From Flavobacteriales bacterium BRH_c54 (GTDB lineage Bacteria > Bacteroidota > Bacteroidia > Flavobacteriales_E > Vicingaceae), in the NCBI GenBank assembly GCA_000961845.1, contig LADZ01000012.1, positions 1 to 64,000 on the forward strand: 64,000 nucleotides of DNA, in the 5' to 3' direction. Both the position numbers and the translations under genes were made by a program. The first letter of the stretch is position 1, and each line of letters begins with the position of its first letter. This document shows positions 3,211 through 33,218 of the stretch, one piece after another. The notes below the pieces were generated by a model. It saw nothing but the letters and a program-made list of their open reading frames with translations. It was not told the origin of the DNA and did no database searches.

Positions 3211-3280
3211 TTTATTAGTTTAATGATTACACCATAAAAGTACGAATTATCCTGCTGCCAAAAATGTAAAAAAGCTTAAA

Positions 3281-3354: not shown

Positions 3355-3387
3355 GCTTAAAAAAGTAAAGGTCTAAAAAAATGAGCT

Positions 3388-3395
3388 TAACTTTG
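3388..3395 (+). promoter_or_regulatory. -7 promoter element of gpmI
   Basis: TAACTTTG matches TAnnTTTG and lies 22 bp before the gpmI start. I could not assign a good -33 element. Confidence 0.45.
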
Positions 3396-3417
3396 TAGTT
3401 CTTAATATTTTCTAGAA

Positions 3418-4941
3418 ATGAACATGAAAAAAGTAGCTTTATTAATTTTGGATGGCTGGGGTTTGGGAGACAAGACCAAATCAGACGCCATTTACAATGC
3501 CAATACCCCATTTTTTGATGCTTGCTTGGCAAAATATCCCAATGCAAAACTAAAAACCTTTGGTGGTTTTGTAGGGTTGCCTGAAGGACAAATGGGTAAC
3601 TCTGAAGTAGGGCATCTTAATATAGGAGCAGGAAGAGTAGTGTATCAAGATTTTGCTAAAATTAATAAAGCTGTAGAAGATAAAACCATTGATAAAAATC
3701 CTACTTTATTAGCCGCTTTTGAATACGCAAAGAAAAATAATGTAAGTGTTCATTTTATGGGGTTGGTTTCCGATGGAGGAATTCATTCGCATCAAAAACA
3801 TTTGTACCGCTTATGCGAGATGGCTCATCATCATCAAATTAAAAATGCCTTTGTGCATGCGTTTACCGATGGTAGAGATTGTGACCCCAAAAGTGGATTG
3901 GGTTTTATAGAGCAACTTCAAGAAAAAATTCAACATACCAATGTAAAGTTAGCTTCGGTAATTGGCAGGTATTATGCTATGGATAGGGATAACCGTTGGG
4001 AACGTGTACAAAAAGCATATAATTTATTGGTTAAAGGCGAAGGAAAAACAACGCAGAATGTATTACAAAGCATTCAAGAAAGTTATATTAATAATGTTAC
4101 CGATGAGTTTATAGAACCTACCGTTGTGGTGGATGAAACAGGAAAACCTTTAGGAACTATTCAGCCGGATGATGTGGTGATTTGCTTTAACTTTAGAACC
4201 GATCGTTGTAGAGAAATTACTATTGCACTAACGCAAGAAGACAAACATGAATGGAACATGAACACGCTTCCGCTGTATTATGTTACCATGACCAATTACG
4301 ATAAGACGTTTAAAAATGTGCATGTTGTTTATGATAAAGATAATTTAAGTAATACCTTGGGAGAAGTGCTATCTACTCATAATAAAACACAAATTCGTAT
4401 TGCCGAAACAGAAAAATATCCCCACGTAACCTTCTTTTTTTCAGGAGGGAGAGAGCTTCCTTTTATTGGTGAAAAGAGAATTTTAATCAACTCGCCAAAA
4501 GTAGCCACTTACGATTTACAACCTGAAATGAGTGCCGAAGAAGTTACTCAAGCCATTCTTAATGAAATTAATAATGACCCTGTGGATTTTATTTGTTTAA
4601 ACTTTGCCAACCCTGATATGGTGGGACATACAGGTGTTTACGAAGCTATTGTACAAGCGGTGGAGAAAGTGGATAGCTGTGTCGAACGTATTGTAAATAC
4701 AGGAATAGAAAAGGGATATTCATTTATCATTATTGCTGATCATGGTAATGCTGACGTTGCTATTAATGCTGATGGTTCTCCAAATACGGCTCATTCCACT
4801 AATTTGGTGCCTTGCATTTTAATAGATGATGATTACAAAACTATTGCTGATGGGAAATTAGCAGATATTGCCCCCACTATTTTAAAATTGATGGATATTG
4901 CTTTGCCAGTAGAAATGGATGGAGAGGTCTTGGTATCTTGA
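3418..4941 (+). CDS. gpmI: 2,3-bisphosphoglycerate-independent phosphoglycerate mutase
   Basis: This enzyme interconverts 3- and 2-phosphoglycerate in glycolysis and gluconeogenesis, in the cytosol, with two divalent metal ions. At 507 residues it has the usual length for the family. Visible hallmarks are LILDGWG at residues 9-15 (metal-binding Asp12), the phosphoserine loop GQMGNSEVGH with Ser62, FTDGRDCDP near 150, DRDNRWER near 180, and the metal-binding ADHGNAD and AHSTNLVP segments near 440-465. ATG at 3418 or at 3424 is possible, and both keep the family N-terminus. The gene is monocistronic and converges on paaI. The -7 element at 3388-3395 is the probable promoter. Confidence 0.98.
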   Translation: MNMKKVALLILDGWGLGDKTKSDAIYNANTPFFDACLAKYPNAKLKTFGGFVGLPEGQMGNSEVGHLNIGAGRVVYQDFAKINKAVEDKTIDKNPTLLAAFEYAKKNNVSVHFMGLVSDGGIHSHQKHLYRLCEMAHHHQIKNAFVHAFTDGRDCDPKSGLGFIEQLQEKIQHTNVKLASVIGRYYAMDRDNRWERVQKAYNLLVKGEGKTTQNVLQSIQESYINNVTDEFIEPTVVVDETGKPLGTIQPDDVVICFNFRTDRCREITIALTQEDKHEWNMNTLPLYYVTMTNYDKTFKNVHVVYDKDNLSNTLGEVLSTHNKTQIRIAETEKYPHVTFFFSGGRELPFIGEKRILINSPKVATYDLQPEMSAEEVTQAILNEINNDPVDFICLNFANPDMVGHTGVYEAIVQAVEKVDSCVERIVNTGIEKGYSFIIIADHGNADVAINADGSPNTAHSTNLVPCILIDDDYKTIADGKLADIAPTILKLMDIALPVEMDGEVLVS

Positions 4942-5004
4942 GGTTCAATGTTTAAAGTTTGAGGTTTCATAAAACGATAATGTTTCTACCTCTAAACTCA
5001 TAAA

Positions 5005-5418
5005 CTAAACTTTCCATTCTTTTCCTGTTCTATAAACAGTACCTTTAAAAGCTCCAACCAACATACCATGTTGGTTAGTTACCGGAATGTTGTAAATGCC
5101 TATTTTGTTAGATAAATTTATCTCTGTAGCTTCAGCAAATAAGGTGTCGCCAACATTTACCGGATTAGGATAAGAAATAGAACATTCCAACGCCACACTT
5201 AATCTGCCATAAGCATTAGAAGCAAAAGCTAATGCACTATCGGCTAATGAAAAAGTTACGCCACCGTGTATAATGCCAAATCCATTGCACATCTCCGGTC
5301 TTACCGTCATTTTTAGTTGACAATATCCTTCTTTTGACTCAATGACTTCGATACCCAACCATTGGCTAAAAGCATCAGTTTCCATCATTTTATCTACTAT
5401 TTTGTGTGTTTGTCCCAT
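5005..5418 (-). CDS. paaI: PaaI-type hotdog thioesterase
   Basis: A 137-residue hotdog-fold protein with the PaaI core CNGFGIIHGGVTFSLADSAL (residues 44-63). The HGG turn and the Asp in LADSALAF form the acyl-CoA thioesterase site. PaaI hydrolyses stalled phenylacetyl-CoA-type intermediates in the phenylacetate pathway. It is the last gene of a minus-strand paaG-paaH-paaI operon; its start is 2 bp past the paaH stop codon, so it is probably translationally coupled. The family alone would also allow a general acyl-CoA thioesterase; the neighbours support PaaI. Confidence 0.88.
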   Translation of the reverse strand: MGQTHKIVDKMMETDAFSQWLGIEVIESKEGYCQLKMTVRPEMCNGFGIIHGGVTFSLADSALAFASNAYGRLSVALECSISYPNPVNVGDTLFAEATEINLSNKIGIYNIPVTNQHGMLVGAFKGTVYRTGKEWKV

Positions 5419-5420
5419 AA

Positions 5421-6587
5421 TTAAAAGAAATTTTTGTTTTCTCTTACCATTCTTCTTAACAATACACTTGGTCGGTAGCGATCTTCTCCGTATTCGTTAA
5501 ATAATGTTTCTAATTGTTGGAGCACATTTTTCAACCCAATTTCATCTGCCCATTTTAATAAACCTTTAGGATAATTTACACCTTTGGTCATCGCTAAATC
5601 AATATCTTCTTTAGAAGCGATGTTTAGGAATAAAGCATCAACAGCTTCGTTAATCAGCATTACTAAAATTCGGTTGAAAATAACAGTGCCTAATGCTTTG
5701 TCTTTGTTGGGTGCTGACATATTAGCCTCATCAGCATAATTGTAATAACCTCTACCCGATTTTCTTCCGTACCAACCTGCTTCTGAGTGTCGTTTTTGCG
5801 TAAAGGATGGTTTGTATCTCGGGTCGTAATAAAACGCTTCAAAAACGGTTTCTGTAACCGTATAATTAATGTCGTTACCAATATAATCCATTAGCGTAAA
5901 AGGACCCATTCTAAAACCACCCATTTCGGTCATAGCCCAATCTATGGTTGCAAAATCGGCTACTCCTTCTTCATAAATTCGTAATGCTTCGCCATAAAAC
6001 GGACGAGCTACACGGTTAACAATAAAACCAGGAGTATCTTTGGCTAGCACAGTTACTTTTCCCCAACTGTCAATTAATGTTCGGGCGGTTTTTTTGGTAG
6101 CTTCGGAAGTTTGTACTGCAGGAATAATTTCTACCAAGGGCATTAATGGTGCAGGATTAAAAAAGTGGATGCCAATTACTCTTTCCGGCTTTTTACAAGC
6201 TGCTGCAATGGAAGCAATAGAAAGTGAAGAAGTGTTACTTGCCAAAATACAATTGGGAGAAGTAATGCTTTCCAACTGAGCAAACACTTTCTTTTTTACC
6301 TCTAAATTTTCAATGATGGCTTCAATAATCAAATCACATTCGGCTAAATCTTTAGTTGAGGTAGAAAAAGTTATTCTTCCCATAATATTATCTGCCGTAG
6401 CCTGATTGATTTTTTCTTTTTGCACTAAACGAGATAAAATGTTTTTTAATCCTGTTGAAGCTTTCACTAAAGCCTCTTCATTTAAATCTACCAGAGTAAC
6501 TTGATGTTTGTTGGTTGCTGCAATTTGCACAATTCCGGAACCCATAGAGCCTGCTCCTAGTACGCCTACTTTATTTATTTCATTCAT
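5421..6587 (-). CDS. paaH: 3-hydroxyacyl-CoA dehydrogenase (PaaH type)
   Basis: An NAD-dependent dehydrogenase that oxidises 3-hydroxyacyl-CoA (3-hydroxyadipyl-CoA in phenylacetate breakdown). The N-terminal Rossmann fold has VGVLGAGSMGSGI (residues 8-19). The middle has the signature IGIHFFNPAPLMPLVEII with the catalytic His, and NTSS before it. The C-terminal half carries two 3HCDH_C-like helical domains, the second starting around residue 285, which gives 388 residues as in PaaH rather than about 285 as in Hbd. It lies between paaG (44 bp upstream) and paaI (2 bp downstream). General beta-oxidation use is possible as well. Confidence 0.88.
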   Translation of the reverse strand: MNEINKVGVLGAGSMGSGIVQIAATNKHQVTLVDLNEEALVKASTGLKNILSRLVQKEKINQATADNIMGRITFSTSTKDLAECDLIIEAIIENLEVKKKVFAQLESITSPNCILASNTSSLSIASIAAACKKPERVIGIHFFNPAPLMPLVEIIPAVQTSEATKKTARTLIDSWGKVTVLAKDTPGFIVNRVARPFYGEALRIYEEGVADFATIDWAMTEMGGFRMGPFTLMDYIGNDINYTVTETVFEAFYYDPRYKPSFTQKRHSEAGWYGRKSGRGYYNYADEANMSAPNKDKALGTVIFNRILVMLINEAVDALFLNIASKEDIDLAMTKGVNYPKGLLKWADEIGLKNVLQQLETLFNEYGEDRYRPSVLLRRMVRENKNFF

Positions 6588-6631
6588 AAGTTATATCTTT
6601 TTTCTTCATTCCTAATGTTTGCTTTTGTTAA

Positions 6632-7408
6632 TTAATTCCCTTTGAAGATTGGTTTACGTTTTTCTAAAAATGCATTTACACCTTCTTGGTAATCGTACGT
6701 CTGTCCGGCTTCATTTTGTAACTCACCTTCTCTGGCTAATTGTTGTGTTAAGTTGTTATTAAACGATTCATTTAATAATCTTTTAGTTAAACCAATTCCT
6801 TTGGTAGGCATTTGAGCTAAGGTTTGAGCTATTCTTAGGGCTTCTTCTTGTAAAGCTTCATCGGCAACAGCTTTATAAATCATACCCATTTTTTCAGCAT
6901 CTTCAGCTATAACCTTATCTCCTAAAAACATTAAAGCAGCAGCTTTTTGCAGACCAATTAATCTGGGTAGGTAGTACGTTCCTCCACTATCGGGGATTAA
7001 CCCAATTTTACTAAATGCCTGTATAAAACTTGCTGATTTTGCTGCAAGGGTAATATCGCAAGCCAATGCAATGTTGGCTCCAGCACCCGCTGCAACACCA
7101 TTTACGCCACAAACAATAGGTTTCTCAATTTTTCTTAATCGATCTATTATTGGATTGTAATGTTCTTCTACAATTTTGGGTAATTCGGTTTGATTAGGAT
7201 CTATGGCTTCTGCTAAATCTTGTCCGGCACAAAATGCTTTACCTTCAGCAGTAATGTAAATGGCTCTTACTTCGGGTTTTTTTTCACATTCGTCTAAAGC
7301 AGCTTGTAAATCAAAAGCCATTTGGCGAACAAAACTGTTGAATTTATCGGGTCTGTTAAGGATGATAATGCCTACTCCATTATCAATTTTAAAGTTGATG
7401 TTGCTCAT
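6632..7408 (-). CDS. paaG: Enoyl-CoA hydratase/isomerase (PaaG type)
   Basis: A 258-residue crotonase-fold enzyme. The oxyanion-hole segments are AFCAGQDLAEA (near residue 58) and GVAAGAGANIALACDI (near 104). GLIPDSGGTYYLPRLIG (near 136) carries Asp rather than the paired Glu of classic hydratases, as in PaaG, the ring-1,2-epoxyphenylacetyl-CoA isomerase. It is the first gene of the paaG-H-I operon. The ring-epoxidase (paaABCDE), paaZ, paaK and paaJ genes are not in the window, so the assignment to phenylacetate degradation rests on family resemblance and gene order. Confidence 0.85.
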   Translation of the reverse strand: MSNINFKIDNGVGIIILNRPDKFNSFVRQMAFDLQAALDECEKKPEVRAIYITAEGKAFCAGQDLAEAIDPNQTELPKIVEEHYNPIIDRLRKIEKPIVCGVNGVAAGAGANIALACDITLAAKSASFIQAFSKIGLIPDSGGTYYLPRLIGLQKAAALMFLGDKVIAEDAEKMGMIYKAVADEALQEEALRIAQTLAQMPTKGIGLTKRLLNESFNNNLTQQLAREGELQNEAGQTYDYQEGVNAFLEKRKPIFKGN

Positions 7409-7466
7409 AGTTTTTCCATTATTTTTTTATAGTTGAACAACAAAAATAGCATTTTGTGTCCATCTA

Positions 7467-7498
7467 TTGTTATTCAAGTATTAGGTTTATTACATTTG
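7467..7498 (+). promoter_or_regulatory. Promoter of yicC-gmk-nadD
   Basis: TTG (7467-7469), a 21-bp spacer and TACATTTG (7491-7498) fit the Bacteroidota consensus and lie 20 bp before the yicC start. On the opposite strand TATTTTTG (7448-7441) is a candidate -7 element for paaG, making this a divergent promoter region. Confidence 0.5.
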
Positions 7499-7517
7499 CA
7501 ACTTAAAATTATCATAG

Positions 7518-8390
7518 ATGATTAAATCAATGACAGGATTTGGGAAATCCGCTACCAGTATCAACCAAAAGAAAATCAGCATAGAAATTCGTTCGCTTAA
7601 TAGCAAACAAGCTGATATTTCTATAAGAATTCCGGCTGTTTACAAAGAAAAAGAATTAGAACTTAGAGCTAAAATTAATCAGCATCTTGAGAGAGGAAAA
7701 ATTGAATTTAGTTTATATGTTGAGCAAACTACTGCCACACCAAATTACCAAATTAACGAAAGTTTATTTAAAAACTATTATAATGAGCTAAAGCGTTTGT
7801 CTGACGAGTTGGGCGAGCAATCTGATTTAATAAAAATTGTTGCAGGAATGCCTGATGTTTTTCAGAAAGAAGAAAAACAAGCCTTAGACGAGTCGGAGTG
7901 GCAGACCATAGTAGAATTGACTACAAAAGCCTTGCAAGATATTGATGCTTACAGAACGGATGAAGGCAATACGCTTCAAAAAGAAATGGAATTGAGAATT
8001 AATAATATTCAACAGCTGTTGAATAAAGTGGAATTGTACGAAAAAGAAAGAATAATTACTGTTAGAGAAAGGATTACAGCACATTTAGAAGAAATTGTTA
8101 ATGGTAATCAGATAGATAAAGACAGGTTAGGGCAAGAGTTGGTTTTTTATATTGAAAAGTTCGATGTTTCAGAAGAAAAGCAACGATTACAATCTCACCT
8201 CGATTATTTTATGGACACTATGAATGATAAGGATTCCCAAGGAAAAAAGTTGGGTTTTATCAGTCAGGAAATGGGTAGAGAAATTAATACGTTAGGGTCA
8301 AAAGCAAATCATTCCGAATTACAAAAAATTGTGGTGGAGATGAAAGATGAGTTAGAAAAGATTAAAGAACAGATATTAAATATTTTATAA
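7518..8390 (+). CDS. YicC family endoribonuclease-like protein
   Basis: A 290-residue protein beginning MIKSMTGFGKS, the YicC_N signature, with EIRSLNSKQADISIRIP following. The C-terminal domain (about residues 205-290, DUF1732) ends with the conserved QGKKLGFISQEMGREINTLGSKA block. E. coli YicC has been reported to take part in RNA turnover; the function here is inferred from the family. It lies just upstream of gmk (5-bp gap), the arrangement common in many bacteria, so the two are co-transcribed. Confidence 0.9.
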   Translation: MIKSMTGFGKSATSINQKKISIEIRSLNSKQADISIRIPAVYKEKELELRAKINQHLERGKIEFSLYVEQTTATPNYQINESLFKNYYNELKRLSDELGEQSDLIKIVAGMPDVFQKEEKQALDESEWQTIVELTTKALQDIDAYRTDEGNTLQKEMELRINNIQQLLNKVELYEKERIITVRERITAHLEEIVNGNQIDKDRLGQELVFYIEKFDVSEEKQRLQSHLDYFMDTMNDKDSQGKKLGFISQEMGREINTLGSKANHSELQKIVVEMKDELEKIKEQILNIL

Positions 8391-17123: not shown

Positions 17124-18485
17124 ATGTTATCTGAAGACAATATAAAATATATCGATTTACATTTAGGTCTTTATGACATTTGTCTAGCAGTTCTATTTTT
17201 TGCGGTGATTTATATCATAGCTTATTATTATAAAAGAATTAAGATTGATAATAATCCGGAATATAAATATTTCATACTTGGCTTAACAGCAAAAGTAGTT
17301 GGTGGATTTATGTTTGCATTATTAACTGTATATTTTATGCCTGGAGATAGTTTAATGTATTATCAGGCATCTATTGATATTTTTAAATTTTTTGCAAAAA
17401 ACCCACCCGAGGGAATTGAAATGATTTTTAAAAGTTACGAGGCAATAGATTTATCATCAAAAGGAGTTAATTATTACACATTAGATTTTATCAATGGAAA
17501 TGATATTTGGCTTCTTGTTAAAATACTTTTCTTCATTAACTTTTTAAGTCTTTTTTCCTATGGTAGCACAACAATAATTTTTGCTTCATTATCATTTATT
17601 GGACTTTGGAAAGCTTATTCTAATCTTTGTAAAATTTATCCGAAATATACCAAGCACTTACTGATAGGGTTTTTCTTTATTCCTTCTATTGTTTTTTGGG
17701 GGTCAGGTGTATTGAAAGATACTATTACATTAAGTTGTATGGGTTGGTTAATTTATGCATTTTCTAATATTTTCATTTTTAAAAGAAGGGTACTTTTTAG
17801 TATACTAATTACTATTATTTCTTCGTATTTTATCATAGTGTTAAAGCCTTATATTTTATATGTTTTACTTCCATGTTTATTGATTTGGGGGCAAACAAAT
17901 TTAAAAAACTTAATTAAAGGAAGTTTTATAAGGATTATATTAATTCCCATGATTGTATTAACAATATCAGTTAGCACTTTTTTTGTATTGCAGAATATTT
18001 CTATTGGAGCTGGAAAGTATGACATTAATAAATTAGAACAAACTTTAGAAGGATTTCAGTCTTGGCATGGTTATTTGGCTGAAACTCAGGATCAATCCGG
18101 ATATACATTAGGAGAAATGGAATTTACCCCTTTAGGGTATTTAAAAGTAGCTCCTGCCGCTTTTAATGTTACTTTTTTTAGACCTTACTTATGGGAAATT
18201 AGGAATGTACCAACCTTAATTGGTGCTTTAGAAAGTTTCTTAATATTATTGTTTGTTGTTTATTTACTATTAAAGTACAGATTTCAGTTTTTTAGAATCA
18301 TGTTTAAAAATAAAGACATATTGTTTATGATGATTTTTGCTGCAATTTTTGGGATAGTAGTAGGCGTTAGCTCATATAATTTTGGAGCTTTATCCAGATA
18401 CAAAATGCCAGCACAACTGTTATTTGTAACGGCACTGCTGTTAATATATAATATAGCAAAAGATGAAAGAAAAATGTTAAAATGA
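17124..18485 (+). CDS. Multispanning membrane protein, candidate polysaccharide polymerase (Wzy-like)
   Basis: A 453-residue protein with about 9-11 predicted membrane segments (for example residues 15-35, 50-70, 130-160, 175-195, 225-265 and a C-terminal pair). A large hydrophilic loop of some 60 residues separates two groups of helices, around residues 290-350 (SIGAGKYDINKLEQ and following). This layout is common to O-antigen polymerases, whose sequences are too diverse to identify by eye. It starts directly after the wecE stop codon, so the two are co-transcribed. There is no other polymerase candidate in the locus, which supports but does not prove the call. Confidence 0.55.
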   Translation: MLSEDNIKYIDLHLGLYDICLAVLFFAVIYIIAYYYKRIKIDNNPEYKYFILGLTAKVVGGFMFALLTVYFMPGDSLMYYQASIDIFKFFAKNPPEGIEMIFKSYEAIDLSSKGVNYYTLDFINGNDIWLLVKILFFINFLSLFSYGSTTIIFASLSFIGLWKAYSNLCKIYPKYTKHLLIGFFFIPSIVFWGSGVLKDTITLSCMGWLIYAFSNIFIFKRRVLFSILITIISSYFIIVLKPYILYVLLPCLLIWGQTNLKNLIKGSFIRIILIPMIVLTISVSTFFVLQNISIGAGKYDINKLEQTLEGFQSWHGYLAETQDQSGYTLGEMEFTPLGYLKVAPAAFNVTFFRPYLWEIRNVPTLIGALESFLILLFVVYLLLKYRFQFFRIMFKNKDILFMMIFAAIFGIVVGVSSYNFGALSRYKMPAQLLFVTALLLIYNIAKDERKMLK

Positions 18486-20789: not shown

Positions 20790-21785
20790 TTAGTTTTCAA
20801 CCCAAAAAGGAGGTAGTTTTTCAGTAATTTCTATGTTTTCAAATTTTGAACTTTCTCTAGCTCCGGCATCTTTTGCCCATGTGGCCATTTTTTGAATGCC
20901 TGTTTCTAATGAGGTAAACTTATCTATTCCAAAAATTGTTTTGGCTTTTTGATGGTCTGCGTGTGCATGAACTACTTCGTTTCTAGGGTCTAAATGCATT
21001 ATAGGCTGATTAATTCCCATAGCATTTTGTATGGTTTCTGCTAATTGTAAAATAGTATATTCTTGGTCTGCACCAATGTTAAAAATTTCGTTTTCGGTTG
21101 CTTTAATGTTTACACAGTTGGCAATATATGGAGCTACATCATCAATATAACTAAAAGCTCTTGTTTGGAGTCCATCACCAAAAACTGATAATGATTTACC
21201 TTGCATTAATTGATTCATAAAAATTCCAATCACATTTCTATATTTATCTCCAATGTTTTGATATTCTCCATAAACATTGTGTGGACGAAAAATGGTATAG
21301 TTTAGTCCAAACATTTCGTGGGCAGTTTTTAGATCTAATTCCACAGCATATTTTGCAACGCCATAAGGATCTTCTGGTTGTGGGTGCATGTCTTCTCGCA
21401 TCGGAGGTGTTAAAGCTCCATATACAGCTATTGAAGAAGTAAAAACAAAACGTTCAACTTTGTGTTTGATAGCTTCATTAATTAAATTAATGCTGCCAAT
21501 TAAATTATTATTGTAATTGAAACGTCTGATAAAGTGACTTAACCCTTCGGCTGCATAAGCTGCTAAATGATAAACATAATCAAATTTATAATCAATAAAT
21601 AATTGTGATATTAGGTTTTCATCGGTAACAGAACCTTTAATAAAAATAGCTTCATTATTTACAAAATCTTCAAAACCACCACTTAAGTCATCAAGGACTA
21701 TAACCTTGTGTCCTAATTTAATTAAATGATTGGTGACATGAGTTCCAATAAAACCTGCTCCTCCGGTAACTAATGATGTTGGCAT
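20790..21785 (-). CDS. NAD-dependent epimerase/dehydratase (SDR)
   Basis: A 331-residue extended SDR. The NAD site is VTGGAGFIGTHV (residues 6-17). The catalytic SSIAVYG region and PYGVAKYAVE supply Ser, Tyr and Lys. The C-terminal domain contains FNIGADQEYTILQLAETI. It resembles UDP-glucose/UDP-GlcNAc 4-epimerases and related nucleotide-sugar enzymes, but the substrate is uncertain. It lies between the amidotransferase and the O-acyltransferase on the minus strand with gaps of 70 and 58 bp, as one operon. A second, distinct epimerase (galE) is at 34174. Confidence 0.88.
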   Translation of the reverse strand: MPTSLVTGGAGFIGTHVTNHLIKLGHKVIVLDDLSGGFEDFVNNEAIFIKGSVTDENLISQLFIDYKFDYVYHLAAYAAEGLSHFIRRFNYNNNLIGSINLINEAIKHKVERFVFTSSIAVYGALTPPMREDMHPQPEDPYGVAKYAVELDLKTAHEMFGLNYTIFRPHNVYGEYQNIGDKYRNVIGIFMNQLMQGKSLSVFGDGLQTRAFSYIDDVAPYIANCVNIKATENEIFNIGADQEYTILQLAETIQNAMGINQPIMHLDPRNEVVHAHADHQKAKTIFGIDKFTSLETGIQKMATWAKDAGARESSKFENIEITEKLPPFWVEN

Positions 21786-21855: not shown

Positions 21856-22965
21856 TTAGAAGAATTTACGATAAGCATTATAAATAAATTCTAGCAATTT
21901 TTTGTTGTTGGGATAATCATTATGGGTTTTAGGAGGAGTATCCATTATAGCATCAAACTCAGTAATTGAAAGTTCTAATTTTTTACATAAATATTCTTTG
22001 TCTTCATTTACTAAATTTATATCATAAGATTTACCCTTTAGTTCTTCCAAAGCCTCTTCTCTGGTTATTTCACCAGAGCAAATTAAAGAAGAAGAGGTTG
22101 ATTTACGGTAGTCAATATTAAATTTTTCAGGAAGTATATAAGATTGTACAAAACGTGTGTATCTTGATTCGTAATGTTTACCACCGTAGTATTTCCAATT
22201 TAATTCATTTTCAAGTAAAGCAACAGCTTCTTTTTTGGAGTATGGAAGGTAGTTAAGAAAATAAATGATTTTAATTCCTTTAAAAAATTTGTAATACATT
22301 TCTTTTAGAAAACCGAAAGTTGGAAAAGTTTTTAAAGGTTTATTTCCAAATTGTTTTTGGATAGCATACAGGTATTTTTCATCTTTAGCGTCATAATGCC
22401 AACTTTTGGGTAAAATACCTTCGGTAGCAAAGTTTCCTCCACTAAGTATGTATTTAATATTATGTTTTGCAGCTACTTTGTGAAGTACGGCTAATATAGC
22501 AATGTCTGTAGGAGTTTCTATTTCAGGCACTGAAGCTCTTAAGAAAGATAGTTGTAGATCTTTAAATTCTTCCCAATCTAATACATGAGTGTGTAAGTCT
22601 ATATCGAGTTTGTGGAGTATTTTTTCTATATTACTTACAGCTAATTCTGAATTCCATCCATTATCTAGGTGGACTGCAAGTGGTTTTAAACCTAGTGCTT
22701 TCGCCTTGTAAGCAACGTAACAACTATCAATACCACCACTAATACCTACTACACAATCATACTTTAGGTTTTTACCTGCAGACTTAATTTTTTCAATAAT
22801 TTCATTAAGCTGTTGGTCGCTTGATGTTCCTTGGAACATCTGCTTTGCAGTATGTTCTAAAAAATTTGTACAGTGATTGCAAAATCCATTTTCATCAAAT
22901 GTAATTTCAGAGTCGGAAGTATCCATTACACATCTGTTACATTGTTGGTAAATGTCTTTTTTCAT
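21856..22965 (-). CDS. N-acetyl sugar amidotransferase (WbpG/PseA family)
   Basis: A 369-residue PP-loop ATP pyrophosphatase-type enzyme that converts the N-acetyl group of a nucleotide sugar to an acetamidino group. The N-terminal zinc-like cysteines are CNRCVMDTSDSEI and CNHC (residues 9-32). The PP-loop GISGGIDSCYVAYKA lies near residue 74, with LAVHLDNGWNSELAVSNIE after it. The end has TRFVQSYILPEKFNIDYRK and SSLICSGEITREEALEEL. In Pseudomonas WbpG needs HisH2/HisF2 as ammonia donor, and none is in view here. A close paralogue forms the C-terminal half of the fusion protein at 24441. A -7 element TACCTTTG lies at 23010-23003. Confidence 0.9.
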   Translation of the reverse strand: MKKDIYQQCNRCVMDTSDSEITFDENGFCNHCTNFLEHTAKQMFQGTSSDQQLNEIIEKIKSAGKNLKYDCVVGISGGIDSCYVAYKAKALGLKPLAVHLDNGWNSELAVSNIEKILHKLDIDLHTHVLDWEEFKDLQLSFLRASVPEIETPTDIAILAVLHKVAAKHNIKYILSGGNFATEGILPKSWHYDAKDEKYLYAIQKQFGNKPLKTFPTFGFLKEMYYKFFKGIKIIYFLNYLPYSKKEAVALLENELNWKYYGGKHYESRYTRFVQSYILPEKFNIDYRKSTSSSLICSGEITREEALEELKGKSYDINLVNEDKEYLCKKLELSITEFDAIMDTPPKTHNDYPNNKKLLEFIYNAYRKFF

Positions 22966-23109: not shown

Positions 23110-24444
23110 ATGCTTGGGAGAAACCTTATTAATTCTGTACTTACTCAAATTCCTGTTTTTATATTGGGAATTGTTAGTGGAGTATTTTCTACAAGAATTT
23201 TGGGTGAAGAAGCAAAAGGAATTTTTTCTTTATTTCAGGCAAATTATCTGTTATTTCTACTAATTTTTTCCTTTGGAATTCAAACAGGAGTAGTTTACTT
23301 CGTGTCAAGTAAAAAATATACAGAGCAAGTTGTTGCAGGAATTTCATCGGCAATTTTTTTGGTAAGTTCGAGTATTTTATTAGGACTATTATTTACTACT
23401 TATTACCTTGATATCAGTTCATTTTATTTGCCTGAAAATTATAATACAATACCTTATCTTATTTCGCTGTTTGTCCTTTTTTTTCTATCTTTTTTTAATA
23501 ATTTAATTACTTCCTTTTTTCAAGCTCGTTCTAAGTTTAATATCATTAATAGAGTTTCTATTATTAATAGTGTAATTAATGCGGCTTTATTTCCAATATT
23601 ATATTTTTATCTGCAAGAAAAACAAATTACAGTAGTTGAGAAATTTAATTACGTTTTAGTTGCTACATTGATATTATTACTATTAAACAGTATCATTTGG
23701 TTTTATTTGTATATGAGACAAATAACTATTATTCCTCAATTTAATGCCGCTATTGTAAATAAAGTTAAAGGTTTTGTAACTTATAGCTTATTAATTTATA
23801 TCGGAATGTTTGTTAATTTTTTTAATTATAGATTGGATTTGTGGATAGTTAATCATTATTTAGACGAAAAACAGTTAAGTTATTATTCGTTAGCAGCTAA
23901 TATTGTTCAAATTATTTTATACTTATCGGTAACTATTGCGTCAGTTATTCTTCCAAAGTTGTCAAATAGTGATAATGATAAGAGATTGATATTATTTGCA
24001 CAAATCAGCAGGTTTAGTTTTTCATTCTTTTTTTTATTGGTTGTTATAGCTTTTTCAACATCTTATTTTATCATCCCCTTAATGTATGGAGAAGAATTTA
24101 CTCCAACTATAATTCCTTTTCAAATTTTGTCTATAGGTATTTTGTTTTCTTGTATAACACAACTGTTTTCTATGTTATTGGTTTCTTCAAATAAAAATAT
24201 TTTTAACATTATTGCCTGTTCAATAGGTTTGATATTTACAGTTGTTTTTGACATCTATCTTATCCCTAAATTTAACATTAATGGAGCGGCCATTGCTACT
24301 TTAATAAGTTATTTTGCCATCTTTATAATTACCTATATCTTTGTTATAACTAAAACTACTATAAAAACAAATAATCTACTTATTCCGACTAAACAAGATG
24401 TTGTCTACTTATACGGTTTAGTAATGAAAAGCTATAAAAAATGA
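23110..24444 (+). CDS. Wzx-type oligosaccharide flippase (MOP superfamily)
   Basis: A 444-residue membrane protein with about 12-14 segments. The start MLGRNLINSVLTQIPVFILG and the segment GVFSTRILGEEAKGIFSLFQ match the polysaccharide biosynthesis protein (Wzx/RfbX) family. The later FNYRLDLWIVNHYLDEKQLSYYSLA and GAAIATLISYF also fit. It would move lipid-linked repeat units across the inner membrane to the periplasmic polymerase. Its 3' end overlaps the start of the next gene by ATGA, so they are translationally coupled. It stands divergent to the amidotransferase operon. Confidence 0.9.
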   Translation: MLGRNLINSVLTQIPVFILGIVSGVFSTRILGEEAKGIFSLFQANYLLFLLIFSFGIQTGVVYFVSSKKYTEQVVAGISSAIFLVSSSILLGLLFTTYYLDISSFYLPENYNTIPYLISLFVLFFLSFFNNLITSFFQARSKFNIINRVSIINSVINAALFPILYFYLQEKQITVVEKFNYVLVATLILLLLNSIIWFYLYMRQITIIPQFNAAIVNKVKGFVTYSLLIYIGMFVNFFNYRLDLWIVNHYLDEKQLSYYSLAANIVQIILYLSVTIASVILPKLSNSDNDKRLILFAQISRFSFSFFFLLVVIAFSTSYFIIPLMYGEEFTPTIIPFQILSIGILFSCITQLFSMLLVSSNKNIFNIIACSIGLIFTVVFDIYLIPKFNINGAAIATLISYFAIFIITYIFVITKTTIKTNNLLIPTKQDVVYLYGLVMKSYKK

Positions 24445-26654
24445 AAGTTGCCATAATAGAAACAGAACATTTTCAGTATGGGTTAACTCAGTCAGAGTTG
24501 TTTGAAGGAGAGGAAAAGTTTTTTTTTGTTACTAAAGTAATGTATGATAAAATGCATGAATATAATTCAGCACTTTGTAATGGTAAGTTTCATATTATTT
24601 CCGGATTAGACGAAGAATACGATAAAGTAATTGATGTTTGCAAGGAAGAAAACATAGAAGTTCTTTTATTAAGTCCGATATTTAAAGGGTTTAAAGGAGC
24701 GTTGAAAATTGCCGAAAATTTAACTTGCCAAAAAGTAATTACTATCCATAACCTTAATTTTTGGCTCAATGCTCGTTTTAGAACTCATAAATATTATAAA
24801 GAGAGAAAATTAAAACAAAAAATAGTTGCCAATTTCGATTATATTGCGGTTGAAGATTTTATGTTTAATTATATCAGAAATAATGATAAGTCTCTTTTTA
24901 AAAAGCATAAATTTTTATATATACCATTTACCATTTTTCATAAACGTGAAGGAAAAAAGTTTCATAAAGAAAATAATCGTTTAAAAATTGTTTTAACAGG
25001 AAGCATCCATAAAGAAAGAAGGAGATATGAGGATGTTATTGAGACCATTCATTATTTTGCAAAAAACCGAGCTAACATTACTTTTTCTTTTGCAGGAAGA
25101 CCCTTAGAAGATTATGGAAAATGGGTAGTAAGTGAATTAGATAAAGCAAATAAAATACACCCCGGAATAGCTGAATATTTTCCAATAGAAGGATTAATAA
25201 CGCCTGATATGTTTCTAAAAGAAATGGAAACGTCAGATTTGGTACTCTCAACAAGTACGACAGAATTTAAAGCCTTAGGAACTACAGAGTATATAGGAAA
25301 AACTAAGCCAACAGCAGCCATACATGATATGATGAGTTTTGAATTACCCGGTTTACTCCCTGCTCATCTTATTGTTCCGGAAAACTTAAAAGGTTCTGTA
25401 TTCAATTATGCTGGAGCAGATGCATTAAAAGGAATTTTACAAAACTTACTTGATAAACCTGAATTGTTAAAAGATTGGAAAAAGCAAGCAACCATTAACT
25501 CTACTTATTTTACTGCAGCTGAAATTAGAAAAAATTTACCTTTTTTCTATACTCAGTGTAAACGTTGTGTTATGGATAATGCTAACGATCCTAATATTTG
25601 GTTTGATAAAGAAGGGAACTGCAATTATTGTAATGATGATTATACTTATATACAAAGTGAGAGTAATGTTAATATTAAAAAACCAGAAAGTTTAACTCGT
25701 TTAATTACAAAAATTAAAGAAGATGGAGCAACTAAAAAATATGATTGTGTTGTTGGAGTTAGCGGGGGGTTAGATAGTGCTTATTTAGTATATAAGCTGG
25801 TAAAATTAGGAGTTAGACCAATAGCTGTTCATTTTGATAATGGATGGAATAGTGAAGCAGCCACACAAAACATTGAAACGCTTTTAAAAAAGTTAAATGT
25901 TGATTTATATACTTATGTGTGCGACTGGGAAGAATTTAAAGATTTACAAATGTCATTTTTAAAGGCTGGAGTTGTAGACATTGAGTTGGTTACAGATCAT
26001 GCTATTTCTGCTACGATGTATGATGCTGCAAAAAAATTTAATACAAAATATATTTTTCAAGGTCATAACCAAAGTTCTGAATTCATTTTACCTGAAGCTT
26101 GGATACACTGGAAAAATGATGCGTTGAATATTAAATCTATACATAAAAAATATGGGTCGGTTAGTCTGAAAACATTGCCATTACTAACTTTTTTCAAAGA
26201 ATATTATCATTTAAAGTATAGAAAAACTAATTACATTTATTTGTTGGACTACATTGATTATAATAAAAAAGAAGCTGAATTAATTTTGAAAGAAGAGTTT
26301 GGATGGAAAAATTATGGAGCTAAACATAATGAATCTATTTTTACAAGATTTTATCAGAACTATATTTTACCTAAGAAATTTAATATTGACAAACGTAAAG
26401 CTCATTTGTCGTCATTGATATGTTCTAATCAAATTACTAGAGAAGAGGCTTTGGAAGAGTTAAAAACAAGATGTTGGGAAACAGATGAAACCAAACAAGA
26501 TAAAGCTTATGTATTAAAAAAATTAGGTGTTTCAGAAACAATATTTGATGCTTGGATGGAAGAAACACCAGTATCTCATCTTGATTTTGCAAGTTATCTG
26601 ACAAGACATAACCAAATAATTACAGCCCTGAAAAAATTAATAGGTAAAAGATGA
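24441..26654 (+). CDS. Fusion: glycosyltransferase-like domain + N-acetyl sugar amidotransferase
   Basis: One uninterrupted 737-residue frame with two enzymes. Residues 1 to about 365 look like a GT-B glycosyltransferase: KVAIIETEHFQYGLTQSELF, then LKIVLTGSIHKERRRYEDVI opening the second half, and DLVLSTSTTEFKALGTTEYI as donor-site region. From residue 371 the sequence restarts as an amidotransferase: CKRCVMDNANDPNI and CNYC, PP-loop GVSGGLDSAYLVYKL near 439, IAVHFDNGWNSEAATQNIE, and TRFYQNYILPKKFNIDKRK. The second half is clearly paralogous to the protein at 21856 (shared NGWNSE, REEALEEL and WEEFKDLQ). A fused enzyme would make an amidino sugar and transfer it, or act on the same glycan. 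The glycosyltransferase half has no obvious catalytic motif I can name. Confidence 0.85.
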   Translation: MKVAIIETEHFQYGLTQSELFEGEEKFFFVTKVMYDKMHEYNSALCNGKFHIISGLDEEYDKVIDVCKEENIEVLLLSPIFKGFKGALKIAENLTCQKVITIHNLNFWLNARFRTHKYYKERKLKQKIVANFDYIAVEDFMFNYIRNNDKSLFKKHKFLYIPFTIFHKREGKKFHKENNRLKIVLTGSIHKERRRYEDVIETIHYFAKNRANITFSFAGRPLEDYGKWVVSELDKANKIHPGIAEYFPIEGLITPDMFLKEMETSDLVLSTSTTEFKALGTTEYIGKTKPTAAIHDMMSFELPGLLPAHLIVPENLKGSVFNYAGADALKGILQNLLDKPELLKDWKKQATINSTYFTAAEIRKNLPFFYTQCKRCVMDNANDPNIWFDKEGNCNYCNDDYTYIQSESNVNIKKPESLTRLITKIKEDGATKKYDCVVGVSGGLDSAYLVYKLVKLGVRPIAVHFDNGWNSEAATQNIETLLKKLNVDLYTYVCDWEEFKDLQMSFLKAGVVDIELVTDHAISATMYDAAKKFNTKYIFQGHNQSSEFILPEAWIHWKNDALNIKSIHKKYGSVSLKTLPLLTFFKEYYHLKYRKTNYIYLLDYIDYNKKEAELILKEEFGWKNYGAKHNESIFTRFYQNYILPKKFNIDKRKAHLSSLICSNQITREEALEELKTRCWETDETKQDKAYVLKKLGVSETIFDAWMEETPVSHLDFASYLTRHNQIITALKKLIGKR

Positions 26655-26742: not shown

Positions 26743-27816
26743 ATGAAGTTAGAAAACCAAACTCTATTAGTTATTTCAAATGAACCTTGGGGAGATATTT
26801 GGTATTCTAAACATAATTGGGCTTATGAATTGTCTAAAAAAAACAAAGTGTTTTTTATAAACCCACCAATTAAATGGAAAATTAGTAATTTGTGGAGTTT
26901 TAAAATCTGTATAGACGATTATAGTGAATCGCTTCAGGTATTAGGTTATCAAAATATATTACCTTTTACACGATTTAGTTTAATCTATAAATTAAACAAT
27001 TTTATTGTTTCAAAAAAAATTAAAAAATGGCTGTTGAACAACAACTATAAAAGATACATTTTTTGGACTTTTGATCCTTATCGATTTTCTAACCCTCAAT
27101 TCTTTTCTCCTTTATTTTCTATTTATTTTAGAGTAGATAAATATAGGGTTCAAAAAGAAAAAATACTTTTGAAAAACATTGATAAATTAGTAGTTACATC
27201 AAAAGAGTTGTTGAAGGATATAATATTTAAAGGGAGTGTGTTAGAATTGTCTCATGGTATTTCATCAGAAGAATTTGTTCCAACTAATACTATAAATTAT
27301 GAGAAAGGTTATTTTTTATATGTTGGAAATATTGACCATCGGTTAAATATAAAATTAATTGATAGAATACTTCAAGAGTTCCCTAATGAAAGATTTGTAT
27401 TTATCGGAAAAATGTATAACTTGTTTACTGAATTATCTCAAGACATTTTTTATAAGAACAAATACAAGAATCTAATAATTCATGGGGTAGAACATTTTAA
27501 AAATTTAAAAAATTATATATACTATTCAAAAGCTTGTTTAGTGCCAATGGATTTAAAAATTCATGGAAATGCAGTACACCACCATAAAACGTTACAATAT
27601 TTAGCTTTAGGGAAACCTATAATTTCTCCAATTTTTAATGATGTTATTAATAAAGAAGAATATATTATAAGCTATAAAAATGATGACGAGGCAATTGAAA
27701 AAATAAAACAATTATCTCATGTAGAAACGAATGAAAAGGTAGTCCAACGAATTCAATTTGCAAAACAATTTACTTACGAAAAACTGATTGAAAAAGTAGA
27801 GCAATTTTTAACATGA
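26743..27816 (+). CDS. Glycosyltransferase (tandem paralogue A)
   Basis: A 357-residue GT-B-like protein. It shares with its downstream neighbour the start MKLENQ, NEPWGD(I/V)WYSKHNWAYELS, YIFWTFDPYRFSNP, IYFRVDKY, KNIDKLVV, ELSHGISSEEF, YVGNIDHRLN and the end TYEKLIEKVEQFLT. This indicates a recent tandem duplication with divergence mainly in the acceptor-binding N-terminal half. The resemblance is to the glycosyltransferase-1 group found in teichuronic/exopolysaccharide loci (TuaH-like). An 88-bp gap precedes it, and the next gene overlaps its stop by 4 bp. Confidence 0.82.
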   Translation: MKLENQTLLVISNEPWGDIWYSKHNWAYELSKKNKVFFINPPIKWKISNLWSFKICIDDYSESLQVLGYQNILPFTRFSLIYKLNNFIVSKKIKKWLLNNNYKRYIFWTFDPYRFSNPQFFSPLFSIYFRVDKYRVQKEKILLKNIDKLVVTSKELLKDIIFKGSVLELSHGISSEEFVPTNTINYEKGYFLYVGNIDHRLNIKLIDRILQEFPNERFVFIGKMYNLFTELSQDIFYKNKYKNLIIHGVEHFKNLKNYIYYSKACLVPMDLKIHGNAVHHHKTLQYLALGKPIISPIFNDVINKEEYIISYKNDDEAIEKIKQLSHVETNEKVVQRIQFAKQFTYEKLIEKVEQFLT

Positions 27817-28898
27817 AATTAGAAAATCAAAATATATTAATCGTGTCCAATGAACCTTGGGGAGATGTTTGGTACTCTAAACATAATTGGGCGTATGAGT
27901 TGTCTAAGAAAAATAGGGTTGTGTTTATTAATCCCCCTAAACCATGGGTTTTTAAAAATTTATTTTCAACTAAAATAAGTACATCTAATTATTCATCAAC
28001 ACTAACAATATTAAATTATACCAATAGACTTCCTCTTACCCGATTTGAATTTTTATTCAATATAAACGAACTTCTTATTAGTCAAACTATAAAAAAATGG
28101 CTAAAGAAGAATGTTGTATCAGATTATATTTTTTGGACTTTTGACCCTTATCGATTTTCTAATCCTAAACAATTTCAGCCTAAATTAACAATCTATTTTA
28201 GAGTTGATAAATATATTAATGACAGAGAAAAAACACTTTTGAAAAACATAGATAAATTAGTTGTTGTTTCAAAAGAGTTATTAAAAGATATTGAGTTTAA
28301 TGGAGCTATTCTAGAGTTGTCTCATGGAATTTCTGAGGAAGAGTTTATAAATGATAGCACCATTGATTACGAAAAAGATTTTTTATTATATATTGGAAAT
28401 ATTGACCATCGATTAGATGTTGAATTAATTGATAAAATGCTTGTAGAGTTTCCGGAAGAAATGTTTTTATTTATTGGAAAAATAGGAGATGCGAAAAACG
28501 ATTTATTTCATGAGGTTTTTTTTAGAAATAAGCATAAAAATTTAATATTGCATGGAGCCGAACATTTTAAAACACTTAAAAATTATATAGCACAAGCAAA
28601 AGTTTGTATAGCTCCGATGTTTTTAGAGGTTAATGGTAATAATATTAATCATCATAAATTATTACAGTATTTAGCATTGGGAAGACCAGTTTTAGCCCCA
28701 CAGTTTATCGATTATCAAAACAACACGTTGGTTTATTCTTATAAGAATCATGAGGAAGGAGTTCAACAACTCAATAAAATTTTAAATGAAGAAGAGAATC
28801 AATTTGTTATTAAAGAACGAATTACTTTTGCCAAACAATTTACTTATAATAATTTAATAAAAAAACTAGAACAATTTTTAACTGAATCAGCCAACTAA
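27813..28898 (+). CDS. Glycosyltransferase (tandem paralogue B)
   Basis: A 361-residue protein, the second copy of the duplicated pair. Its start overlaps the first copy's stop as ATGA. The shared landmarks are WTFDPYRFSNP, LSHGISEEEF, NIDHRLD and YLALGRPVL (YLALGKPII in copy A). Differences concentrate in residues 45-110 and 240-300. Two successive linkages using similar acceptors or donors would explain keeping both. It is followed by a TAATG junction into the next glycosyltransferase, so the three are tightly coupled. Confidence 0.82.
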   Translation: MKLENQNILIVSNEPWGDVWYSKHNWAYELSKKNRVVFINPPKPWVFKNLFSTKISTSNYSSTLTILNYTNRLPLTRFEFLFNINELLISQTIKKWLKKNVVSDYIFWTFDPYRFSNPKQFQPKLTIYFRVDKYINDREKTLLKNIDKLVVVSKELLKDIEFNGAILELSHGISEEEFINDSTIDYEKDFLLYIGNIDHRLDVELIDKMLVEFPEEMFLFIGKIGDAKNDLFHEVFFRNKHKNLILHGAEHFKTLKNYIAQAKVCIAPMFLEVNGNNINHHKLLQYLALGRPVLAPQFIDYQNNTLVYSYKNHEEGVQQLNKILNEEENQFVIKERITFAKQFTYNNLIKKLEQFLTESAN

Positions 28899-30007
28899 TG
28901 CATATTGTTTTTGTCATATCTAACGAATCTAGTGTTCCATATTTTAAGTGGTTTGCTGAAAAAGCAGCACAACAAAAAGAGCATAAATTCTCTTTTGTAA
29001 CCCTTTATACCGAAAAACCAAAGATGATTGAAGATGTGGGTAAATATGGTTGGGATTGCTATTGGTATAAATTTGATCACCATAAAAGAAAAAGAGGGAT
29101 GGTTCGCGCCTTTTTTCAATTGTATAGTTTGTTTAAAAAACTAAAGCCTGATGTGGTACACACGCATTTATTTGATGATTCTTTTCCGGGCTTGATGGCA
29201 GCTCGTTTGGCAGGAGTTAAGAAAAGAGTGGTAACTAAACAAGATACAACTTTCCATTATTTTTATGCTCCAAAATGGGTTTTTGCAGATAGAATCAATA
29301 ATAAAAATGCAACTCATTTGGTGCCCGTTTCTAAAGAAGCAGAAAAATTTATTATTGAGAAAGAAAATGCTCCAAAAGAGAAAATTACCATGATTCATCA
29401 CGGAATCCCACCTGAGATTTTTACTCAACAATCGGAAATGTATAAAAAAGAAATCATAGAAAAGTATCAATTAGCAGGTAAAAAAATTATTGGAACAGTA
29501 GCTCGTTTAATTGAATGGAAAGGTTATCGCTACATAGTAGAAGCAATTCCGGAAGTTATAAAAAAGAATCCTAACACAGTTTTCTTATTTGTTGGTCAGG
29601 GCGATCAAAAAGAGGAACTACAACAATTAGCTAAAAAACTGAATGTGATTCAATATATTGTATTTACAGGTTGGGTAGATAGAGAATATATTCCCTCTTT
29701 ATACGCACTATTAGATGTTTATGCTCATGCTGCTAACTACGAACCTTTTGGTTTTGTAATACCGGAAGCCATGATGAATGCTGCTCCTGTAGTTTCTACT
29801 CCTACCGGCTCTGCTTTGGATGCTATTCAACATAAACAAAATGGATATTTAGTTAACTATAAAGATGCGGCTTCTATGGCAGAAGGCATTAATTATACAT
29901 TAGAGTATGGTGCTGATTTTAAGGAAAAAGGACAAAAAACAGCCCTAGAAATGTATAACTTTGAGCGAATGTGGAACTCATACATTAATTTATATATAAA
30001 AACATAA
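28898..30007 (+). CDS. Glycosyltransferase family 4 protein
   Basis: A 369-residue GT4 enzyme. It has the acceptor-half segment KLKPDVVHTHLFDDSFPG, the linker KKIIGTVARLIEWKGYRYIV at the start of the donor half, FVGQGDQKEELQ, and the donor site EPFGFVIPEAMMNAAPVVST with the EX7E pair. These are typical family features. The start ATG overlaps the previous stop (TAATG). It transfers an unknown sugar in assembly of the repeat unit. Confidence 0.92.
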   Translation: MHIVFVISNESSVPYFKWFAEKAAQQKEHKFSFVTLYTEKPKMIEDVGKYGWDCYWYKFDHHKRKRGMVRAFFQLYSLFKKLKPDVVHTHLFDDSFPGLMAARLAGVKKRVVTKQDTTFHYFYAPKWVFADRINNKNATHLVPVSKEAEKFIIEKENAPKEKITMIHHGIPPEIFTQQSEMYKKEIIEKYQLAGKKIIGTVARLIEWKGYRYIVEAIPEVIKKNPNTVFLFVGQGDQKEELQQLAKKLNVIQYIVFTGWVDREYIPSLYALLDVYAHAANYEPFGFVIPEAMMNAAPVVSTPTGSALDAIQHKQNGYLVNYKDAASMAEGINYTLEYGADFKEKGQKTALEMYNFERMWNSYINLYIKT

Positions 30008-31148: not shown

Positions 31149-32023
31149 AAACATTAGTCTCTATTATTATCCCTTGCTACAATGCAGAAAAATACATTGC
31201 AGAAACCATCGATTCGGTGATTAATCAGTCTTATTCTAACTGGGAAATTATCATTGTTAATGATGGATCAACGGATAATTCTGCTACAATTTTAAATCAA
31301 TTTTCAGAAAAAGATAATAGAATTCAATTAATTAATAAGTCTAATTCAGGAGTATCTGATACTCGTAACAGAGGATTAGAAGTAGCAAAAGGCGAATTGG
31401 TTACTTTTTTAGATGCAGACGATGTTTGGCACGCAACTAATTTAGAAAAAAAGGTAAAATTTCTTATATTAACAGATTATGATGTAGTATATTCCTATTG
31501 TCAAATGATTGATGAACAATCTAAACCGATAAATAGAATTTTAAAAGGAGAAAATAATTTAAAAATATCGGATTTATTGAGTCTAAAAGCTAACTATAAT
31601 ACAGCACCTTCAGGAATAGTATTTAAAAAAGAAGTTTTACATAAAATAGGCGGTTTTGATGTTAATTTATCTAATAATGCTGATCAGGATATATTAATTC
31701 AAGCGTTAGCTAGTAGATTTAAATTTGGTGTTATTTCTGAAGTATTGTGGAATTATAGAATTCATCCTGAAAACATGTCAAAAAACGTAGATTTACTCGA
31801 AAAAGACAGTATTTATCTATTCAGAAAATGCGAAAAACAACAACTTTTTCATTCCTATTGGTTTAAGCAACAATGTTTTTCTAATTTATATCTTATTTTA
31901 GCCGGTAGTTGGTGGAAAAACGGTAATAACAAGCTTCGAGGTTTGTATTTTTTATTGTTAGCAATTGTAACCTATCCTGCATCAATTGCATTAATTTTCA
32001 AGAAAATAGTTAATGAAAAATAG
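31145..32023 (+). CDS. Glycosyltransferase family 2 protein, probable CTG start
   Basis: An inverting GT-A enzyme. The family N-terminus KTLVSIIIPCYNAEKYIAETI is encoded just after a CTG at 31145, which overlaps the FkbM stop as CTGA, the same geometry as ATGA overlaps elsewhere in this locus. The first standard start in frame is GTG 31217 (24 codons later), which would delete the nucleotide-binding first strand SIIIPCYN, so I reject it. Further motifs are VNDGSTDNSATIL, GVSDTRNRGLEVAKGELVTFLDADDVW with the DXD-like metal site, and GGFDVNLSNNADQDILIQ. 292 residues with the long start. Confidence 0.85.
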   Translation: MKTLVSIIIPCYNAEKYIAETIDSVINQSYSNWEIIIVNDGSTDNSATILNQFSEKDNRIQLINKSNSGVSDTRNRGLEVAKGELVTFLDADDVWHATNLEKKVKFLILTDYDVVYSYCQMIDEQSKPINRILKGENNLKISDLLSLKANYNTAPSGIVFKKEVLHKIGGFDVNLSNNADQDILIQALASRFKFGVISEVLWNYRIHPENMSKNVDLLEKDSIYLFRKCEKQQLFHSYWFKQQCFSNLYLILAGSWWKNGNNKLRGLYFLLLAIVTYPASIALIFKKIVNEK

Positions 32024-33218
32024 AGAAAACATATTAGTTATTACATCTTGGAGTTATAATGATGCGCTGATTCAAACTTATACTTTGCCTTATTTAAATA
32101 TTATTGCGAATCATCTACCCAATGAGGCTAGGATTTTTCTTACAACGCTTGAAAAAAATAATCAACCCATAAACAATAATCACACTAAAATTAAGAATAT
32201 ACTTATTGATTATCATCCATTAAGTTTAAAGGGGTTAATGATGTGGATGGGACTTATTTTTAAGTTGTTGAAGACTATTAGAAAAGAAAAGATCGATGTG
32301 ATACATTGTTGGTGTACACCTGCCGGTATGATAGGATATATTTTGTCTTTACTTACAGGAAGGCCGCTTATAATTGATAGTTATGAACCACATGCAGAAA
32401 CTATGGTAGAAAATGGTGTGTGGAAAAAAAATGGGTTGGTTTATCACCTACTTTTTTTCTTTGAGAAAAGATTAACTAAAAGAGCCAAGTATTTAATAGC
32501 AACAACGGAAGGAATGAAAAGCTATACAAAAGAAAAATATCATTTTTATGGCAATAATATATTTGTTAAACCAGCCTGTGTTAATCTAACTTTGTTTTCT
32601 GAAGCTAATTTAAAAAATAACATATTAGTGGAAGAATTAAAACTTCAGGACAAAATTGTTGGTGTGTATGCAGGGAAGTTTGGAGGTATTTATTTAGCAG
32701 AAGATATATTTGATTTTTTAAAAGTTGCAGAAAATTATTGGGGAGATAAATTTAGAGCACTAATATTATCCGCTCATACTAAACTAGAAATTGAAAACTA
32801 TGCCTCTAAAAGCGAGGTTAATCCCAAAACAATTATACATCGATTTGTGGCTCATCATGAAATTCCGAATTATATTGGGTTGGGAGATTTTGGTATTACA
32901 CCTGTTAAACCTATTCCTACAAAACGTTATTGTACACCCATTAAAGATGGAGAGTATTGGGCATTAGGACTTCCTGTTGTAATTACTAAAGATATTTCTG
33001 ATGATTCCGACATTATTAAAAATAATAAAATAGGAAGTGTGATAGAAGAATTGAATGAAGCAGCTTATTTAAAAGCTATTAAAGAAATAGATAATTTATT
33101 AAGTAAGAATTCTAGAGAAGAAATTTACCACAAAATAAGACCTATTGCAGAGAAATACCGGAATTTTAAAATAGCAGAGAAAATTTATGCAGCGATTTAT
33201 AATGATTTCAAACATTAA
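32013..33218 (+). CDS. Glycosyltransferase family 4 protein
   Basis: A 401-residue GT-B protein starting MKNRENILVITSWSYNDALI. It shows DVIHCWCTPAGMIGYILSLL and YEPHAETMVENGVWK in the first half, and IVGVYAGKFGGIYLAEDIFD and GDFGITPVKPIPTKRYCTPI in the second. The family donor-site Glu/Gly pattern is weaker (KDGEYWALGLPVVIT). The start overlaps the GT2 gene by 11 bp, so it is coupled. It is the last plus-strand sugar transferase before the convergent methyltransferase. Confidence 0.83.
   Translation: MKNRENILVITSWSYNDALIQTYTLPYLNIIANHLPNEARIFLTTLEKNNQPINNNHTKIKNILIDYHPLSLKGLMMWMGLIFKLLKTIRKEKIDVIHCWCTPAGMIGYILSLLTGRPLIIDSYEPHAETMVENGVWKKNGLVYHLLFFFEKRLTKRAKYLIATTEGMKSYTKEKYHFYGNNIFVKPACVNLTLFSEANLKNNILVEELKLQDKIVGVYAGKFGGIYLAEDIFDFLKVAENYWGDKFRALILSAHTKLEIENYASKSEVNPKTIIHRFVAHHEIPNYIGLGDFGITPVKPIPTKRYCTPIKDGEYWALGLPVVITKDISDDSDIIKNNKIGSVIEELNEAAYLKAIKEIDNLLSKNSREEIYHKIRPIAEKYRNFKIAEKIYAAIYNDFKH

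Follow-up and report, generated by a model that had tools for sequence, protein, structure and literature searches.

The window analyzed here is a 64,000-nucleotide stretch of the Flavobacteriales bacterium BRH_c54 genome, in which one frame (24441..26654, + strand) was initially annotated as a glycosyltransferase (GT) fused to an N-acetyl-sugar amidotransferase (AT). Is this a genuine two-domain protein and, if so, at what stage of glycan assembly does its AT half act? The annotated frame proved exact to the base; it is open for 737 codons and has no internal stop.

The C-terminal half, residues 370 to 737 (25548..26651, +), is a WbuX/WbpG-type AT domain. Residues 372 to 706 match the NCBIfam model TIGR03573 (WbuX) with 267.5 bits, against a cutoff of 203.2, and the closest Foldseek match of this half is 8wex (E = 2.4e-13). 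That entry is the structure of LpNASAT; the tetracysteine motif CXXC-Xn-[GN]XCXXC and the PP-loop SGGXDS were defined in PMC10607449, which gives WbpG/WbuX enzymes a role in forming acetamidino groups, a reaction that probably cleaves ATP to AMP and PPi. The fused domain has the tetracysteine (Zn) motif as CKRC...GNCNYC (residues 373 to 397; 25557..25631, +) and the PP-loop as SGGLDS (residues 441 to 446; 25761..25778, +), and it keeps the nearly invariant residues of the AT family. With its score above the cutoff and both the cysteine pairs and the PP-loop in place, this half contains the complete WbpG/PseA-type amidotransferase that had been claimed for it. Characterized enzymes of this family (WbpG, WbuX, LfnA, and PseA; TIGR03573; 8WEX) have the fold, the tetracysteine motif, the PP-loop, and HisH/HisF2 genome partners in common with the fused AT. 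However, they are separate proteins, whereas the AT in the window is joined without a linker to a glycosyltransferase. The window also encodes a complete stand-alone AT of 369 amino acids (21856..22965, -), which has the tetracysteine motif and SGGIDS and matches TIGR03573 with 305.3 bits. The identity between this protein and the AT half of the fusion is 49.6%, in keeping with the paralogy first proposed, and the two sit in different clades of the AT tree.

The N-terminal half, residues 1 to 369 (24441..25547, +), had no match in a sequence search of Pfam and NCBIfam. AlphaFold2 modeled this half alone with a pLDDT of 81.6 and a pTM of 0.77. The model has a GT-B fold, and its Foldseek matches in the PDB include PimB', BshA, MshA, and PglA (E values down to 2e-11 and TM scores up to 0.68). 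When the GT family profile was compared with a GT4 set by hhalign, the probability was 97.3% (E = 2.6e-11); a PDB sequence search with the family profile gave no match. The domain search of each half that the initial annotation called for identified the AT half by sequence, whereas the GT-B-like domain was confirmed by its predicted fold and by profile comparison. The GT half also has an EX7E-like motif, EFKALGTTE (residues 275 to 283; 25263..25289, +). E283 is kept in nearly all of the family and E275 only in a close group made up of the fused group and G003. The GT half reaches none of the PF00534, PF13692, and PF13439 cutoffs, and two or three distant family members match weakly. Because the Pfam thresholds are missed and only the second glutamate of EX7E is kept in distant relatives, we call this half GT4-like and do not file it as GT4. 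The retaining GT4/GT-B enzymes PimB', BshA, PglA, and MshA share with it the two-Rossmann GT-B fold, and the EX7E-like motif is present in the close group. Unlike them, the fused GT half falls below every Pfam and NCBIfam threshold and carries a C-terminal amidotransferase.

The two domains meet at F369/Y370 (25545..25550, +). Stand-alone GT orthologues end in ...LPFF or ...LPF followed directly by a stop codon, and this places the boundary at residues 369/370 instead of the approximately 365/371 given earlier. At the join, the last residue of the GT orthologue meets the YxQC of the AT directly, and the sequence ...RKNLPFF-Y[TN]QC is kept across the fused genes. The window gene has no start codon just 5' of the AT motif, so a separate AT made by ordinary initiation is not expected. 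An AT start of its own inside the fused frame was rejected because the nearest ATG, and the sole in-frame start near the join, is codon 378 (M378), which lies in the CxxC region. In the window sequence, T TTT TTC precedes the join, and programmed frameshifting on it was also considered but was dropped because other genera differ there (A TTT TTT in G027 and T TTC TTC in G187).

The full-length fusion is present in five genomes of two families: the window genome, G004 (a Flavobacteriales MAG, UBA2669; 97% identity), G027 (68 to 69%), G187 (66%), and G216 (63%). The join is read through in all five, and both halves are under purifying selection, with dN/dS values of 0.02 to 0.17 in pairs with unsaturated synonymous sites. 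As a draft in 69 contigs, the window genome might contain an assembly or sequencing error that joined two genes. However, the same frame occurs in five separate genome records with many synonymous differences along the gene, which leaves that explanation next to no chance and excludes the hidden gene boundary against which the initial annotation had cautioned. Because it is kept in five genomes, with both halves under purifying selection and no upstream start for the AT alone, 24441..26654 is a true fusion. The same dN/dS values, together with the intact tetracysteine motif, PP-loop, and nearly invariant residues, make it very improbable that the AT half is degenerate or regulatory and has lost amidotransferase function.

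The GT also occurs without a fused AT. In G003, a Vicingaceae MAG that represents a sister species in the genus of the window genome, the GT is 91% identical and has a TAA exactly at the fusion point (CCT TTT TTT TAA), with the ATG of the next gene directly after this stop. In G224, from another family, the GT is 57% identical and also ends at LPF (CCC TTT TGA). Both genes are in synteny with the window cluster. G224 falls outside the fused group in the GT tree and G003 inside it, and the AT tree places stand-alone ATs of G002 and G008 within the fused clade (support, 97). The simplest history is a single fusion event onto a stand-alone GT, after which G003 deleted its AT and G002 and G008 split theirs off again. 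These AT splits and the deletion show that the covalent GT-AT link is dispensable. The GT orthologues of G003 and G224, with no fused AT, indicate that transfer is independent of the AT. The syntenic cluster of G224 comprises a flippase, the GT orthologue, a TuaH-like GT, two GT4-type enzymes, and a polymerase candidate, and G224 has neither a WbuX match nor a HisF2 above the cutoff. The G224 GT thus serves a similar cluster with no machinery for amidination, and the modification looks like a decoration that transfer by the GT half does not require.

We also looked at the corresponding locus of G008 (L039, G008:C7). There, two neighboring GTs are fused into a 738-amino-acid protein (4481-6697, -), and one GT is tandem duplicated in a single frame of 821 amino acids (1111-3576, -). 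Fusion events are frequent at this locus.

In the window, the start of the fusion gene overlaps by 4 bases with the gene for a Wzx-type flippase (23110..24444, +; PF01943; 10 hydrophobic segments). It is followed by two paralogous TuaH-like glycosyltransferases (26743..27816, +, a weak NF047676 match below the cutoff, and 27813..28898, +, also below the NF047676 cutoff), a GT4 glycosyltransferase (28898..30007, +; PF00534, E = 1.2e-34), a GT2 glycosyltransferase (31217..32023, +; PF00535), and a GT4-like glycosyltransferase (32013..33218, +; PF13439). An NAD-dependent sugar epimerase/dehydratase (20790..21785, -; PF01370) adjoins the stand-alone AT. The candidate polymerase of the cluster is a polytopic membrane protein (17124..18485, +) with 10 hydrophobic segments, no Pfam match, and a position that is kept in relatives. 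A HisH/HisF2 pair is encoded outside the window, on another contig of the same genome (G000:C1:16573-17929, -). This HisF2 matches NF038364 (AglZ/HisF2) with 341.6 bits, against a cutoff of 310, and it adjoins a HisH. This HisH/HisF2 pair is the only one in the genome, where no other HisF scored well. There is also a third WbuX (G000:C1:43057-44067, +), so that a single ammonia source seems to serve all three amidotransferases. HisF2 was above the cutoff in 8/8 tested genomes that have an AT (WbuX).

We lean, by a modest degree, toward a bifunctional enzyme that works within a surface-glycan cluster of the Wzx-dependent type and would transfer an N-acetyl sugar and then carry out amidination with ammonia from HisH/HisF2. 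The GT half would add an N-acetylated sugar to the repeat unit carried on undecaprenyl. Next, the AT half would use ATP, via its PP-loop, to activate an N-acetyl carbonyl, and ammonia would replace the carbonyl oxygen, giving a positively charged acetamidino group. The modified residue would most likely be the one just added by its own GT half, and the ammonia would come from the single HisH/HisF2 pair, shared by the fused AT and both stand-alone ATs encoded in the genome. The fused AT would be a module for decoration, attached to a GT that is functional on its own as well. Sequence cannot separate action on the just-transferred residue from action on the donor or on a neighboring residue, and a prediction of the full-length chain (pTM, 0.55) did not confidently place the domains relative to each other.

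Alternatively, the AT might amidinate the nucleotide-activated N-acetyl sugar and pass the product directly to the GT half. PP-loop enzymes commonly use small soluble substrates, and direct passage would account for the fusion and for recurrent GT partners. Furthermore, the fusion partner of one WbuX elsewhere (L050) is a hexapeptide acyltransferase, an enzyme whose substrate could be a nucleotide sugar. However, G003 retains the GT with no AT fused to it, and G224 retains it with no AT or HisF2 in the genome, so this GT would have to take the plain sugar too. When MMP1081, a WbpG homologue of the archaeon M. maripaludis, was deleted, the third sugar was still attached without its acetamidino group and the fourth sugar was lost (PMC2952790). 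LfnA and WbuX are membrane associated, according to the title of King et al. 2008 as cited in PMC11637443. We counted the MMP1081 phenotype and this membrane association for action on the same residue by a system that tolerates transfer of the unmodified sugar. Also, the genome survey described below turned up no WbuX whose fusion partner was an epimerase, dehydratase, or aminotransferase of nucleotide sugars. We consider amidination of the donor unlikely, although far from negligible.

Our survey covered 395 genomes of the class, and WbuX was found in 142 of them (E ≤ 1e-30). Among the matches listed, 17 were in frames of 605 to 1,030 codons. In the fused frames, WbuX is behind at least three distinct GT4 groups and two GT2-type groups, as well as behind the L050 acyltransferase, a full asparagine synthetase, and a 449-amino-acid domain; once it is in front of a methyltransferase. 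The other GT-WbuX fusions are in G020 (767 amino acids), G094, G048, G192, G221, and G130 (796 to 799 amino acids), and G409 and G210 (796 to 813 amino acids), with GT2-type fusions in G255, G317, L136, and G229. All have the GT-then-AT order of the window gene, but their GT halves are from other families and their AT domains are in other clades. Therefore, these fusions arose independently. The AT tree requires at least 13 switches between the fused and the stand-alone state, and well-supported branches force 9 of these. Two of the fused GT-AT pairs also occur as separate adjacent genes, in L165 (GT2x) and L032 (GT4b). The several independent fusions and these split neighboring versions support linkage of amidination to transfer, and the recurrence of the fusion suggests physical coupling of the two steps. 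The initial annotation, which read the fusion as a channeled step that makes and transfers an amidino sugar or as two acts on one glycan, is therefore partly supported: it holds for the link between the steps, while strict channeling and an amidino sugar formed before transfer are possibilities.

A deletion might also have joined adjacent pathway genes by chance, so that each domain acts by itself on a different residue, with equal dosage as the sole gain. The GT-GT fusions of G008 mean that some fusion at this locus may be incidental, fission and loss have been repeated, and enzymes of the same kinds as the fusion partners are also frequent neighbors. However, the architecture has been kept in five genomes of two families. 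GTs are also enriched as partners, accounting for approximately 7/10 N-terminal fusion origins but 17/70 immediate upstream neighbors of stand-alone ATs (one-sided Fisher P = 0.007), which we use as supporting evidence only because the origins are few and their grouping is a judgment. The commonest upstream neighbor, HisF2 (19/70), was fused in 0/10 origins, a difference that was not significant (P = 0.11). An incidental fusion is a minor possibility.

The bifunctional reading can be extended, more tentatively and at somewhat less than an even chance, to a repeatedly evolved transfer-and-amidinate class. In such proteins, the same polypeptide would amidinate the lipid-linked glycan right after sugar addition, and not the nucleotide sugar. 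Acetamidino groups give positive charge to O-antigens and flagellin glycans. If this proposal is true, then amidination would be coupled to glycosylation instead of taking place on the nucleotide sugar. With both predicted activities in one chain and AT-less orthologues available, donor-level and lipid-linked amidination are separable with purified components. These fusions are of value because they recur and because orthologues without an AT allow the timing of amidination to be tested.

The initial annotation had also suggested a new architecture. No description of a GT-WbuX fusion was found in the literature searched, which largely excluded subscription journals; the component domains are known, and the fusion class is apparently undescribed. 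However, it is not unique to this locus. The search across genomes recovered the same fusion in five of them and further independent GT-WbuX fusions, making it part of a recurrent class of Bacteroidota proteins in which WbuX is fused to a partner. For a glycan of another member of the Bacteroidota, Tannerella forsythia, the predicted AsnB-type protein Tanf_01265 has been proposed to form the acetamidino group of pseudaminic acid (PMC6120980). Tanf_01265 is of the asparagine synthetase type, unlike the WbuX-GT fusion of the window.

Several other frames in the survey join WbuX or a related domain to a different partner. In L063 (G080:C119, 1-1927, -), WbuX is behind the 449-amino-acid domain, which has no Pfam match and resembles a polysaccharide deacetylase by eye only; the contig end cuts this frame. 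In L064 (G026:C30, 3242-5182, -), a methyltransferase-like domain is at the C terminus of WbuX. L065 to L068 (in G097, G022, G099, and G073) are proteins of 540 to 680 amino acids whose N-terminal domain is a class II glutaminase; they also have a PP-loop domain that resembles WbuX but is divergent and below the family cutoff, and they are possibly a self-sufficient amidinating or amidating family. L060 (G421:C6:32500-42500, 4515-7592, -) encodes a 1,025-amino-acid protein with a complete asparagine synthetase (TIGR01536, 413 bits) and a complete WbuX. L060 combines a glutaminase and a sugar amidotransferase in one chain and may bypass HisH/HisF2.
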